Assembly: GCA_024635555.1 (NCBI GenBank)
Contig: JAGXIO010000144.1
Span: 1-64,000 of the forward strand
From: Saccharicrinis sp.
Lineage (GTDB): Bacteria > Bacteroidota > Bacteroidia > Bacteroidales > Marinilabiliaceae
DNA length: 64,000 nt
Direction: 5' to 3'
Shown here: positions 528-59,993 of the stretch, in pieces
Layout of the letters: each line of letters begins with the position of its first letter
Position numbering within the stretch: position 1 is the first letter of the stretch
Translations under genes and position numbers: made by a program
Notes under the pieces: generated by a model
Database searches by the model: none
What the model saw: only the letters and a program-made list of their open reading frames with translations
Told to the model about the DNA's origin: nothing

Positions 528-3500
528 ATGGAAAAGACAAATCTTTTATTCACTAAAAATTTAGGTTTTATAAAAAACTCCGGATTATGTTCAAATCAAA
601 AATGTAGATTAGTCAAAGTGTTTACTTTAACATTTTTATTTTCTGTAATTTTTATCAGCAGTACTTTCGCACGTAGTATTGCATTTACAGCACCCACAGG
701 TACAATAGAGCAATATCAAATGCTTGAATACAAGTTTGAGGTTACTAATCCAGTTGCCACAAATGGATTTACAGGTGTAACCATTGCAAGTGCATTTACC
801 CCATCTGGTAAAAGTGCTGTAAATGTAAAAGGTTTCTGCGACAGCAACGATGGCACCCTTTTTTATCAGCGTTTTACGCCGGTTCAAACAGGTCAGTACT
901 CTTATACAATCAGGTTTACCGATAGTCAGGGAACCGAAACCTATACAGGGACGTTCAATGTTGTAGCTGGCACTCGCAAAGGTTTTGCCTTACCTGACAA
1001 GGGTCATGGCGGGACACATATGTATAAATTCACCTATTCTAACGGCGAGTTTTTTATACCTAGCTCACAAACAGCCTGGATGCTTTTAGACTGTACAGAT
1101 ACGCAGTGGAAGGCCTATGTTGATCGAACTGCTGTGCGCAACCAAAACGTTTTACGTTACGCCTTTGAAGGTGATTTGTATAACGGTACAAAAATAGATG
1201 CACTTGATTGCTGGCCAATGGGTGGAACACGAAGCAATCCAGACTTCAATTCATTCAATTTAACCTATTGGAGGAAAGTTGAAACTATCCTGAAGTATGC
1301 CGAAAACAAAGGAATTCTGGCAGAATTAGTTTTAGCCGAGGAATACCAGAATTATGCTTCTCCTTGGCCTAAGCTGCATAAATACCTTGATTACTTAGTG
1401 GCAAGATTATCTCCAATGACCTCTGTGTTTATGTACGAGACTTTTAATGAGTCAATTAATAATAAACCTTGCCAAAAAGAAATGGGAGATTACTTGGATT
1501 TAATTGACCCATACAAACACCCGGTGGCACCCAGCCCGGGTACAACCTCTACTCCATTATGGGCATCCGAATCATGGGTTGATGTAGCTATTTATCATTC
1601 GTGTACAGGATCTGATGGACTGGAAAGCCGCTATTATACATGGGCAAAAGGAGCACTGATATATAACAAACCTGCATGGTGCGATGAAATGGGAAGAGAA
1701 GTGCGCCATAATAATAATAATGCAGAGCACAGGCGTAAACAACTATGGACATTGAATATAGCAGGAACACACTGGAACTATCATTCAGGCGAAGGTTGTG
1801 AAGAGATACAGAATATATCTTACACTGGACCTGGAGCGAATTACATACAATTTGTTTTGCCTTTTTGGAAAACAACAGATTGGTTAAATTTAAAAGCCGA
1901 TGATAATGTATATGGAACAAAACCTTCGTCACAGTATTGTCATGCTATGCGTTCACCAACAGAAATTGTTTCCTACTTTGTAAACGAGACAGCCGGAGCA
2001 GCGACATCGGCAGGCACACTCACATTAAAAGCTCCTGCTGCAGGAACAATTACTGTAGAGTTTTATAACCCAAAAGATGGTACTTACTTTACGAGTTATA
2101 AAAAAACGTTTATCGCAACTGCCAAAGACCAGCTTTTAACAATAAACTATCCTGCATTTACTGATGATTTGGTGCTCCGTGCATATGCACAGGTAGGATC
2201 GCAAGTTTCCATCTCAGCTAACTTAACGACAATTAAAACTGGAAATTCTGTAACCTTTACTGTAAACGCCAGTGCACCTTCAGGATCTTCAATAGCCTCC
2301 TATCAGTGGAATTGGGGAGGTACACTGCAAAATGGCACAGGCACACCAGCCAGCTCAGTTTCCAAAACATTTTCAACAGCCGGAGAATACGATGTTACCT
2401 TATCTGTGACTGATAATAGTACACCAGCAAAAACTGCTACTTCAGGTGTTGTTCATATAAAAGTGGTTGATAATTTCTCACCCGTTATCTCCAAAGTTAT
2501 GTATGAATTGGTCGGGACGCTTAATCCTACAACAAGTATAGACAGAACAACAATTACTATCAAAGTCAATGATAAACTTGATTTTATGGCTCAAGCTACT
2601 GATGCAGAAAACAATCCCTTAACTTATGCTTGGGATTTAGATGGCAATGGAAGCTATGAAACTTCAGGGCAAAATGTCCAAAAAACCTTTACCGCTACAG
2701 GAACAATTAATGGTAGTGTTCGAGTAAGTGATGGAATAAGCACACCAACAATGCGTGCCATTCAGATTAAAGTGAATCCATTGACACCATCAGCATTTTT
2801 AGAAGCAGGTGGACTGGTATCTATGGAAGCCGAGAATATGTCTGCTTCTGACCCCCGAACTGATCCGGGCAATTTGTCTTGGACCACGGCATCATCACAA
2901 GCTACCTTCTCTGGTGCTGGCTATATCCAAACAGCAAATAGTGGTTCAGCTAATGGAGATTGGGTAAATGCCGCCGAAACAAGCTACGAAGTAAAATTTG
3001 CAACAACCGGAAATTATACCGTTTGGATTCGTCGATATTCTCCAGATGATGCGTCTAATTCTGTATTTTTAGGAATGAGTGGAACTGGCTTGGCCAGTTA
3101 CGACAATGTTGCAACTGTTGGTGCTTGGGGTTGGTATAAATTTACAGGTGCATTTACTGTAAATGCGAGTGGAAATAAAACTATTCAACTTCGTCGACGT
3201 GAAGATGGTTATTTGGTTGACAAAATAGTGCTTTCAACCGATGCAAGCTATGACCCATCAGTTTTAAATAGTGGATTGGGACCTGTAGAAAGTTTATTGG
3301 AGAATTCTAATACGCCACCAGTGGTTACGATTTCCGCTCCTACAGCAGGCAGCAGTTTCACAATTGATTCAACAATTGCTGTTACAGCTAATGCAACCGA
3401 CAATGATGGAATTGAGTTTGTCGATTTTTATGTTGGAAGTGAATTAATTGGTACTGCATCCACATTACCATATACAATCAATTGGACTCCCCCAGCAGTA

Positions 3501-3845
3501 GGTACTTATATTATCTCTGCCTTTGCGCAGGATAGTAAAGGAGCTTCCAGTACATCTGCGTCAATTACTATCCTAATAAAGTCAAATACCTCTTTAAATA
3601 CTAACTCGACTGAAGCAAATGTAATTTCCGTTTATCCAAATCCATGTGCAAACAAATTGTTTGTACATGGAGTAACTAATGGAAGTATGGAAATTTATAA
3701 TAATACAGGATCAAGAATCAAATTTGTGAACATAACAAATGTCGAAAGTAGTGTCAATCTAAGTGACTTGCATACGGGATTTTATGTAATTAAAATAAAT
3801 AATCAAAATGGGCTAGCCCAAAGTGTTAAAATTAGCAAGTATTAA
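528..3845 (+). CDS. Secreted multidomain glycoside hydrolase (DUF5060 / apiosidase-like) with PKD, CBM and T9SS tail
   Basis: This 1105-residue protein has a long N-terminal leader whose hydrophobic core is at residues 31-48. A DUF5060-like beta domain covers about 50-145. A TIM-barrel hydrolase of the DUF4038/GH140-like type covers about 155-480. Likely catalytic acids are E308 in ETFNES and E387 in WCDEMG. A small beta domain follows (490-555), then two PKD-like repeats (about 557-645 and 655-750), a CBM6/35-like carbohydrate-binding domain starting at SMEAENM (about 760-905), an Ig-like domain (about 932-1015) and a T9SS tail (about 1035-1105, entry motif YPNPCANKL). The family predicts action on a branched plant polysaccharide such as apiose-bearing pectin; the exact substrate cannot be read. 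The gene stands alone between two terminators. Confidence 0.8.
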   Translation: MEKTNLLFTKNLGFIKNSGLCSNQKCRLVKVFTLTFLFSVIFISSTFARSIAFTAPTGTIEQYQMLEYKFEVTNPVATNGFTGVTIASAFTPSGKSAVNVKGFCDSNDGTLFYQRFTPVQTGQYSYTIRFTDSQGTETYTGTFNVVAGTRKGFALPDKGHGGTHMYKFTYSNGEFFIPSSQTAWMLLDCTDTQWKAYVDRTAVRNQNVLRYAFEGDLYNGTKIDALDCWPMGGTRSNPDFNSFNLTYWRKVETILKYAENKGILAELVLAEEYQNYASPWPKLHKYLDYLVARLSPMTSVFMYETFNESINNKPCQKEMGDYLDLIDPYKHPVAPSPGTTSTPLWASESWVDVAIYHSCTGSDGLESRYYTWAKGALIYNKPAWCDEMGREVRHNNNNAEHRRKQLWTLNIAGTHWNYHSGEGCEEIQNISYTGPGANYIQFVLPFWKTTDWLNLKADDNVYGTKPSSQYCHAMRSPTEIVSYFVNETAGAATSAGTLTLKAPAAGTITVEFYNPKDGTYFTSYKKTFIATAKDQLLTINYPAFTDDLVLRAYAQVGSQVSISANLTTIKTGNSVTFTVNASAPSGSSIASYQWNWGGTLQNGTGTPASSVSKTFSTAGEYDVTLSVTDNSTPAKTATSGVVHIKVVDNFSPVISKVMYELVGTLNPTTSIDRTTITIKVNDKLDFMAQATDAENNPLTYAWDLDGNGSYETSGQNVQKTFTATGTINGSVRVSDGISTPTMRAIQIKVNPLTPSAFLEAGGLVSMEAENMSASDPRTDPGNLSWTTASSQATFSGAGYIQTANSGSANGDWVNAAETSYEVKFATTGNYTVWIRRYSPDDASNSVFLGMSGTGLASYDNVATVGAWGWYKFTGAFTVNASGNKTIQLRRREDGYLVDKIVLSTDASYDPSVLNSGLGPVESLLENSNTPPVVTISAPTAGSSFTIDSTIAVTANATDNDGIEFVDFYVGSELIGTASTLPYTINWTPPAVGTYIISAFAQDSKGASSTSASITILIKSNTSLNTNSTEANVISVYPNPCANKLFVHGVTNGSMEIYNNTGSRIKFVNITNVESSVNLSDLHTGFYVIKINNQNGLAQSVKISKY

Positions 3846-3861
3846 TTTTAACAATAAATTT

Positions 3862-3905
3862 AAAAAGCTACTTGTTAAATATTCATTTGACAAGTAGCTT
3901 TTTTA
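3862..3905 (+). terminator. Rho-independent terminator
   Basis: Perfect arms AAAAGCTACTTG and CAAGTAGCTTTT are separated by a 16-base loop and run into T residues. It ends the DUF5060 hydrolase gene. A group II intron fragment begins right behind it. Confidence 0.85.
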
Positions 3906-3907
3906 GG

Positions 3908-4029
3908 TATGCCGAGCATGGCAAGTAAATTTGACGGTGCAAGTCCGTTATAGGGCTATCACTTGCCAACCATTAGGCAGGGATGTCCATCGTGAGGTGG
4001 AACCTGAAGAAGCCGGCGGATACGGATAG
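3908..4029 (+). mobile_element. Group II intron 5' fragment (domain I remnant)
   Basis: The stretch reads like the start of a bacterial group II intron: a GCCGAGCATGGC segment, then GGTGCAAGTCC, then GATGTCCATCGTGAGGTGG and ACCTGAAGAAGCCGGCGG. These match in order and spacing the domain I segments I know from bacterial introns (GAGCATGGC, GGTGCAAGTCC, GTCCACCGTGAGGTGGAA, CTGAAGGAAGC). No reverse transcriptase and no recognisable domain V follow, so only the first 120 or so bases survive. It sits directly after a terminator hairpin, the preferred target of class C introns, though I cannot set the class by eye. Confidence 0.65.
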
Positions 4030-4063
4030 CAAGATTCAAGTTGTATTTACAATTTGAATCTTG
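4030..4063. repeat. Isolated perfect hairpin next to the intron fragment
   Basis: Arms CAAGATTCAAGTTGT and ACAATTTGAATCTTG flank a four-base ATTT loop. The single G/T mismatch becomes a G-U pair in RNA. It is not followed by a T tract, so it does not look like a terminator for rightward transcription. Function unknown. Confidence 0.55.
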
Positions 4064-4136
4064 ATTTACCACAAAGTTGGAAGATTATGAAAGCTGTTTT
4101 TGTGTGATTTATAGCACAAAATATCCGATTGTATAT

Positions 4137-4294
4137 TTAACCTGAAAAATGCACGCATTTTTCACTTTCCGCTATCATAGGCGGAAAGCTGAAAAAGTTT
4201 AAGTAAACTTTTTCGAGGGTTAACCCTCGATTCTGCTTAGGCAGAATCGGCCTTTGGTGCCTTATTCATAAAATTTATGAATAGGGCAGGTTAA
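4137..4294. repeat. Tandem-hairpin repeat (MITE-like), copy 1
   Basis: This 158-bp element starts TTAACCTG and ends CAGGTTAA (perfect inverted ends). Its interior is a chain of palindromes: 4143-4164 (TGAAAAATGC arms), 4165-4188 (CTTTCCGC arms), 4191-4214 (GAAAAAGTTTA arms), 4215-4228 (GAGGGTTAACCCTC), 4229-4248 (GATTCTGC arms), a weak GGC/GCC pair and 4263-4283 (TATTCATAAA arms). A nearly identical copy lies at 9141-9299, with shorter relics at 33200-33251 and 59972-59993. It encodes no protein. I read it as a non-autonomous mobile element; the ends could equally be CCTG/CAGG with TTAA as the duplicated target. Confidence 0.8.
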
Positions 4295-9140: not shown

Positions 9141-9299
9141 TTAAACCTGAAAAATGCACGCATTTTTCAGGTTACGCTATCATAGGCGGAAAGCCGAAAA
9201 AGTTTAAATAAACTTTTTCGAGGGTTAACCCTCGATTCTGCTTAGGCAGAATCGGCCTTTGGTGCCTTATTCATAAAATTTATGAATAGGGCAGGTTAA
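9141..9299. repeat. Tandem-hairpin repeat (MITE-like), copy 2
   Basis: Nearly identical to 4137-4294 from the third hairpin onward. The left end reads TTAAACCTG and the right end CAGGTTAA. Here the first hairpin is a perfect 14-bp stem (AACCTGAAAAATGC / GCATTTTTCAGGTT), while the second hairpin is spoiled (TTACGC against GCGGAAAG). Loop bases in the third hairpin differ from copy 1 while the stem is kept. The right end touches the broken 5' edge of a tannase pseudogene. Confidence 0.8.
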
Positions 9300-33083: not shown

Positions 33084-33112
33084 TTAAATGAATAAAAAAC
33101 TATTTTAGCCCA

Positions 33113-33144
33113 AATAATTCAAGAATTATTTCTACCTCCGGTAG
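33113..33144 (-). promoter_or_regulatory. Two short dyads in the metY leader
   Basis: Ahead of metY lie the palindromes AATAATTC-AA-GAATTATT and CTACC-TCC-GGTAG. They could form a leader structure. They do not fit a SAM riboswitch that I can recognise. Confidence 0.3.
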
Positions 33145-33199
33145 CGACTAAGTTTCACTAATAATTTTTTTCAAAAATTAAAGTTCAGCTATGTCGGGG

Positions 33200-33251
33200 T
33201 TAACCTTAACTTTATTCATACTTTCTAAAATTTATGAATAGTTCAGGTTAA
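33200..33251. repeat. Tandem-hairpin repeat, internally deleted copy
   Basis: This 52-bp piece keeps both ends (TTAACCTT left, CAGGTTAA right) and the last hairpin (TTTATTCATA / TTTATGAATA). The five inner hairpins of the full element are missing. Confidence 0.65.
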
Positions 33252-59864: not shown

Positions 59865-59971
59865 ACAAAAGCAACAGAAAAGAGTTAAGGTGGGTAATGG
59901 GATTTAATATTTCACGAACCGAAATAAATATTTCTATCTTCTGAATCCTCAACATTATCATATTTTTGGTA

Positions 59972-59993
59972 ATTTATGAATAGTTCAGGCTAA
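59972..59993. repeat. Tandem-hairpin repeat, right-end relic
   Basis: ATTTATGAATAG then TTCAGGCTAA matches the right end of the 158-bp repeat with substitutions. Upstream parts are not recognisable. Confidence 0.5.

Follow-up and report, generated by a model that had tools for sequence, protein, structure and literature searches.

Introduction

In the passages cited, piggyBac has the IS1380 transposases as its prokaryotic outgroup, and piggyBac elements duplicate mostly TTAA and sometimes CTAA or TTAG (PMC10813416, PMC10140906). For one IS1380 element, IS1247, the cited part of the source lists a 5-bp and not a 4-bp duplication (PMC3281130). MITEs derived from other insertion sequences have been described as well, namely MITECca01 (IS982, Cardinium), MITEPye1 (IS1182, Paracoccus) and BrickBuilt (IS5-family-like ends, Porphyromonas) (PMC9769881, PMC11578231, PMC4596501). 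As far as the cited sections of these reports go, all three resemble the element described below in being short, in having no transposase gene and in carrying the ends of a known IS family, and for some of them target duplications, an intergenic bias or a predicted secondary structure is given. In the accessible passages of the open-licence literature we found no IS1380-derived MITE of Bacteroidota. Template-switch mutations create and repair hairpin stems, according to the cited part of PMC8794818.

Here we describe a 158-bp hairpin-tiled repeat that occurs twice in a 64,000-nt stretch of Saccharicrinis DNA, the whole of which we refer to as the window. The repeat is very probably a MITE, which has no enzyme of its own and is mobilised by an IS1380-family DDE transposase. 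Its family, MITE-A, is new, belongs to the IS1380 type of MITE and has an interior rich in hairpins. Like the IS1380 family, MITE-A has an end of the form CCTG...ATTCATAAA adjoining NTAN and a 4-bp duplication, which is CTAG in an intact IS copy (L057). Unlike IS1380 elements, it has no transposase gene, only ~13-17 bp per end are alike, and its interior is an array of hairpins that is absent from the IS1380 copies read. It differs from MITECca01, MITEPye1 and BrickBuilt in its IS family and target, and the cited sections describing those elements contain no seven tiled hairpins.

Results

The 158-bp unit and its fold

The features of the window are collected in Table 1.

Table 1. MITE-A, MITE-B and IS1380-type features in the window.
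Feature	Position	Strand	Remarks
MITE-A copy 1, full length	4137..4294	+	TTAA target duplications at 4137-4140 and 4291-4294; mobile core CCTG...CAGG at 4141-4290
MITE-A left terminal end with fold-back hairpin 1	4141..4163	+	12 of the first 13 nt as in the own-genome IS1380 left end
MITE-A central hairpin 4, with an internal TTAA	4216..4227	+	Four genome copies elsewhere stop here (element positions 1-87)
MITE-A right terminal end with fold-back hairpin 7	4259..4290	-	CCTGCCCTATTCATAAA inward on the - strand; 14/17 as in the own-genome IS1380 right end
MITE-A copy 2, full length	9142..9299	+	Hairpin 2 gone, hairpin 1 longer; left junction GTTAAACCTG, which makes the 4-bp flanks unequal
MITE-B copy with IS1380-type end and fold-back terminal hairpin akin to that of MITE-A	33105..33251	-	4-bp flanks TTAA / CTAA
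Short relic of an IS1380-type terminal hairpin	59947..59992	-	TTAG followed by CCTGAACTATTCATAAA

The unit is bounded by the outer sequences TTAACCTG and CAGGTTAA, and its hairpins lie at element positions ~8-27, 29-52, 54-79, 80-91, 92-113, ~113-125 (a weak one) and 123-151. The outer four bases on each side are duplicated target, which leaves a mobile core of 150 bp, and no ORF of at least 80 aa overlaps positions 4137-4294. Folded as RNA, the unit has a minimum free energy of -74 kcal/mol against a mean of -33.5 (sd 4.0) for shuffled sequences (z = -10), and with DNA parameters z is -10.7; in both cases none of 200 shuffles equalled the native sequence. The RNA fold pairs the two ends and thereby closes a cloverleaf of inner hairpins. 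With DNA parameters the partner of the left end is the GGTTAA inside hairpin 4, and no more than the first three hairpins are enclosed.

The hairpin-tiled repeat that had been noticed from the letters of the window is thus real, and its unit, bounds and strong fold are borne out. It had been described as six perfect palindromes plus one weak one: the tiling and the weak hairpin stand, but not all the others are perfect, as copy 4137-4294 has T-G wobbles at pair 54-79 (hairpin 3) and pair 126-148 (hairpin 7). The second full copy is also present, starting one nucleotide later than the proposed 9141. The two copies differ at 6 of the 158 positions (2, 29, 30, 33, 54 and 67), and the differences at 29, 30 and 33, in the 5′ arm of hairpin 2, abolish that hairpin in the second copy and extend hairpin 1. 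Because three of the six differences break hairpin 2, the statement that the stems are conserved while one loop differs was wrong.

Two further features lie upstream of the first copy. By eye, positions 3986-4101 (+) resemble a group II intron relic, for which Rfam gives group-II-D1D4-3 at 20.2 bits, below the gathering score of 32. An AT-rich inverted repeat at 3858-3907, just downstream of the ORF at 528-3845, is possibly a terminator; its only matches are to microRNA models and score far below threshold.

Copy number, target duplications and empty sites

The genome that contains the window (5.33 Mb in 259 contigs; own genome, G000) holds at least 55 MITE-A matches, 20 of which are palindromic hits. 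At least 35 places carry the repeat in the forward sense of the element, a lower bound as 40 of 78 candidates were scored, and 22 of them are nearly full length (at least 156 of 158 positions). A covariance model listed 33 matches in the same genome. Two of the copies, L007 and L024, lie at contig edges, have the left flank and one mark in common and may be a single copy split in two.

We compared the 4-bp flanks beside CCTG and CAGG, in element orientation, in 21 own copies of nearly full length, L007 being omitted for having too little flank; in 19 of them the pair is equal. Sixteen of these pairs are TTAA, and the other three are TTAT/TTAT, TTAG/TTAG and CTAA/CTAA. Since flanks other than TTAA also come as equal pairs, they point to a duplicated target and not to a fixed terminal inverted repeat. 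The two copies with unequal flanks are L013 and L014, the latter with CTAA on the left against TTAA. In the relatives of the same genus, G005 and G006, TTAA stands on both sides of all six copies that were tabled. The flank table covers 31 of 53 placed copies, with truncated copies and several decayed G006 copies omitted.

We searched for empty sites by comparing 18 insertion sites, as joined flanks, with nine genus genomes. Two clean empty sites with a single TTAA were found, one for L004 at a paralogous locus of the own genome (C179) and one for L010 on contig 57 of G005. The counterpart of L006 is consistent with an empty site, yet diverged, and the counterparts of L009 and L014 gave no clean answer. 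For the other 13 sites no spanning match was among those listed for the nine genomes.

Mobility of MITE-A is thereby well supported. The suggestion that the repeat is a non-autonomous transposon holds on copy number, on the 4-bp target duplications that flank most copies, on the empty sites and on ends in common with an insertion sequence (below), and further copies are present both in the own genome and in genus relatives.

Four half copies (L027, L030, L049 and L050) consist of element positions 1-87, and their 4-bp flanks match in two of four. We considered that they might be a separate mobile element and set this aside, because L050 has marks in common with the full copy L022, as does L027 with L006, and because two of the four flank pairs do not match. 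A recurrent deletion between the two GGTTAA repeats would fit better.

Distribution and genomic setting

With the covariance model, MITE-A was found in 3 of 71 family genomes, all three in one genus of 21; this search used stricter filters, and some weak matches were lost. A DNA search found it in 3 of 61 genomes, the own genome included. No match was obtained by blastn in plasmids or phages, and none in viral contigs with one exact pattern. Matches of a core pattern in Clostridia and Ruminococcus metagenome assemblies (L069, L071, L072, L075) consist of hairpin stretches with a similar ACTTTCCGCC...GGCGGAAAGT core, judged by eye, and have no TTAACCTG ends; we take them as chance or convergence.

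When an end overlap of up to 30 nt is tolerated, no mechanical ORF of at least 300 nt contains any of the 53 placed copies. At the half copy L049 the joined flanks lengthen a neighbouring ORF across the site, and this insertion may have interrupted a gene at its start. At six copies (L002, L009, L033, L034, L036 and L051) the adjoining mechanical ORF reaches 3 nt into the unit and takes its stop codon TAA from the duplicated target.

Ends and the probable IS1380 transposase

Genes of PF13701 above the curated cut-off are present in six of nine genus genomes. The element L057, in G008, is intact. Its ends read CTAG followed by CCTGAATAATTC on one side and CCTGAACTATTC on the other with a CTAG/CTAG duplication, and they were located by inverted repeat and duplication, without use of the MITE ends. 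Its transposase scores 363 bits with NCBIfam transpos_IS1380 (NF033539; cut-off 180) and 482 bits with PF13701, and the protein was matched in 15 of 149 genomes drawn from the order. The 17 IS1380 ends that we tabulated read CCTG(A/C)NNNATTCATAAA or near it and adjoin NTAN, an agreement that is partly built in because most of them were picked by an end-like pattern or by alignment.

In the draft assembly of the own genome (259 contigs) no intact IS1380 transposase gene was found. The only assembled own copy with both ends (L058, on C245) has stop codons and an internal deletion; its left end is CCTGAAATATGCATAAA, its right end CCTGCTTAATTCATAAA, and its flanks are unequal (ATAG versus TTAG). 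One further IS1380-type left end lies on C117, beside TTAA and near the contig edge. When compared with the own IS1380 relic, the left end of MITE-A, CCTGAAAAATGCACGCA, agrees at 12 of the first 13 nt (13/17), and the right end, CCTGCCCTATTCATAAA, at 14 of 17.

In a scan with a matrix built from the 17 IS1380 ends, 4 of 127,966 window positions reached the score of the MITE right end, two of them the right ends of the MITE copies and the remaining two further ends of IS1380 type. The score of the left end was reached by 11 of the 127,966 positions (8 of 340 CCTG sites), MITE copies included. The right end is strong evidence for the apparent link to IS1380, and the left end alone is weak evidence for it. 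Across the genome the end pattern CCTGNNNNATTCATAAA has 36 matches, 24 of which are MITE-A right ends, against none for a reversed control. The IS1380 gene locus of G006 (L059) showed no matching end pair of the CCTG type.

Judged by its ends and target, MITE-A would be moved by an IS1380 transposase, and an intact IS1380 source presumably exists or existed.

A second family, MITE-B

Through the end pattern we found a second family, MITE-B, which has its end signature in common with MITE-A and an interior unlike that of MITE-A. The copies read measure 139 to 203 bp between the flanks; the left end folds back, hairpin stretches in the interior are optional, and in several copies the inner arm is CAGGTTAA. 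With a single-copy query we obtained matches, which are not to be equated with copies, in four of the nine genus genomes (24 in G000, 37 in G006, 11 in G005 and 1 in G007) and no match in the other five. Both ends were recognised at 16 of 24 loci examined, and the 4-bp flanks are equal in 12 of these 16, six of the equal pairs being other than TTAA.

In L179, L187, L189, L191, L192 and L195 the short optional stretch varies, by eye, and some of the alternatives are paired (GAC..GTC, GGC..GCC). A third repeat inside the MITE-B loops was considered and rejected, the exact 14-mer CGTTCGGCGCAGCC occurring only once in the own genome.

Origin of the hairpins

In one MITE-A copy, L023, an inverted copy of the left arm of hairpin 1 has taken the place of the right arm; it continues past TTAA and includes 6 bp of host flank. 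The inverted match is 14 nt long (8 from the element and 6 from the flank), and of 36 copies in which both ends were scanned no other has such a match; in a control in which left flanks were swapped between copies, the longest match in 200 shuffles was 10. L023 is the footprint of a template switch. As in the template switches of PMC8794818, in the part cited, an inverted copy of one arm supplants the other; that source is there concerned with RNA genes, whereas the present case is a mobile element and includes captured host flank. A similar rewritten arm is seen in L013 and L037, with no captured flank. From the rewritten arm of L023 we infer that template switching during replication helped to create and re-perfect hairpins, and one clear case together with several suggestive ones points to a role for it in building the array.

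At either terminus of MITE-A the hairpin is formed by the transposon end folding back on itself. Within the outermost 80 nt of the IS1380 copies L057 and L058, the end itself folds back over 4 bp at most. On the left, these copies have a subterminal hairpin (L057:1353-1432, z = -5.1; L058:1359-1438, z = -2.4), and their right ends give z values of 1.0 and 0.1. Because the left subterminal region of the IS has a hairpin of its own, some of the MITE structure may be inherited from the IS.

Our tentative proposal, which we put forward as one possible history and not as the established one, is that the terminal hairpins, and with them the CAGGTTAA of the MITE-B inner arm, arose by snap-back copying at transposon ends, and that repeated rounds led to the array. 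Both MITE families would then preserve a natural record of how templates are switched in living bacteria. Modular hairpins would have been gained, re-perfected and deleted as units, and apparent covariation would be mutational and not selective.

The same IS1380-type MITE might instead owe its hairpins to selection on active source elements, in which a DNA fold aids transposition, and not to template switching. The consensus sequences of the own genome and of G006 differ at three stem pairs, all of which still pair (one is T-G in one and C-G in the other), and an alignment of 20 chosen copies (A2) has four pairs changed on both sides, as many as in none of 500 shuffles, with 98.6% of cells paired; this alignment leans towards pairing because rearranged and decayed copies were omitted. 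With the consensus-level pairs intact and the double changes in A2, the source lineage seemingly stayed paired while inserted copies drift. Such source-level pairing is what selection on the fold would give, and fold-back terminal hairpins in both MITE families and the left subterminal hairpin of the IS are likewise in its favour. The outer ends of the two folded IS copies, in contrast, have no fold-back, so that in the IS it is not required for the transposition reaction, and in L023 an arm was rewritten after insertion. We regard selection on the source fold as unlikely on balance, if still a serious contender.

Stem changes and the question of an RNA function

Individual copies behave differently from the consensus. 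Scored against the own-genome consensus, private stem changes in 34 copies or fragments of the own genome comprise 20 single changes that break a pair (7 A-C, 13 other), 14 single G-T changes and five paired doubles, three of the five in the diverged copy L029; in all these tallies a change common to related copies is counted once per copy. In 13 copies or fragments of G006 there are 75 single broken pairs (22 A-C, 53 other), 25 single G-T changes, 13 paired doubles and nine broken doubles. In addition, 11 stem cells in the own genome carry C-G where the majority has T-G. Private changes are thus mostly uncompensated in both genomes, and since G-T and A-C singles are not clearly unequal we see no good sign of selection on the top-strand RNA. 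Hairpin 2 has been lost in L013 and L023, and hairpins have been deleted in L025, L033 and L036. Inserted MITE-A copies decay without visible constraint on pairing.

These changes bear on the suggestion of the sequence-only reading that the repeat is a structured RNA under selection, with stem substitutions compensated. On compensation the outcome is divided by level: in single copies the changes are mostly uncompensated, and in the G000/G006 consensus all three differing pairs are kept. According to this explanation the repeat would be a small RNA, a 3′-UTR or a terminator-like element that is kept by selection on its fold, and its mobility would be mere spread. The very strong fold, the four doubly changed pairs in A2 and the three consensus pairs agree with it. 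They are set against broken single changes that outnumber paired doubles in both genomes, the lost and deleted hairpins and the occurrence of the element in only three of the 71 family genomes. Furthermore, no Rfam family matches the 158-bp unit at the gathering score, the best overlapping weak match being STnc560 at 16 bits against 55. An orientation preference is also absent: among the 29 of 53 placed copies that lie between tandem ORFs, 17 are co-oriented with the genes and 12 opposed (p = 0.46), and we therefore dropped co-orientation with neighbouring genes as a candidate feature. At the level of individual copies the suggestion is not supported, uncompensated stem substitutions being what the sequence-only reading had itself named as refuting it, and a structured RNA kept by selection is very improbable as an account of the repeat.

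In having hairpins close to either end and a target of four nucleotides, the repeat resembles the IS200/IS605 or REP/RAYT class, in which a TnpA or RAYT enzyme would recognise hairpins in single-stranded DNA, and a TnpA-like transposase had accordingly been proposed as the mover. IS200/IS605-type TnpA elements, however, are not known to make a target duplication, and since MITE-A has a 4-bp duplication (19 of 21 flank pairs, three of them other than TTAA, and two clean empty sites with a single 4 bp) and ends that resemble those of IS1380 DDE elements, such an origin is scarcely credible.

Discussion

For an IS1380-type MITE with a hairpin-rich interior, we propose the following course of events. 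An IS1380-family DDE transposase acting in trans would recognise both ends of the CCTG...CAGG core, and the core would be inserted at an NTAN site, mostly TTAA, with duplication of the 4 bp. Template switching during replication would create and re-perfect hairpins, deletions would take hairpins away, and after insertion the copies would decay. The hairpins of MITE-A look, at least in part, like a product of DNA-copying errors rather than like working RNA.

The results account for a 158-bp repeat that might otherwise pass for a structured RNA, and they provide a worked case in which a strong fold together with apparent compensatory change need not show an RNA function. They also bring to light two MITE families, each present many times, that can be used to count the edits left by template switching: the starting sequence is known, and the host flank serves as a tag.
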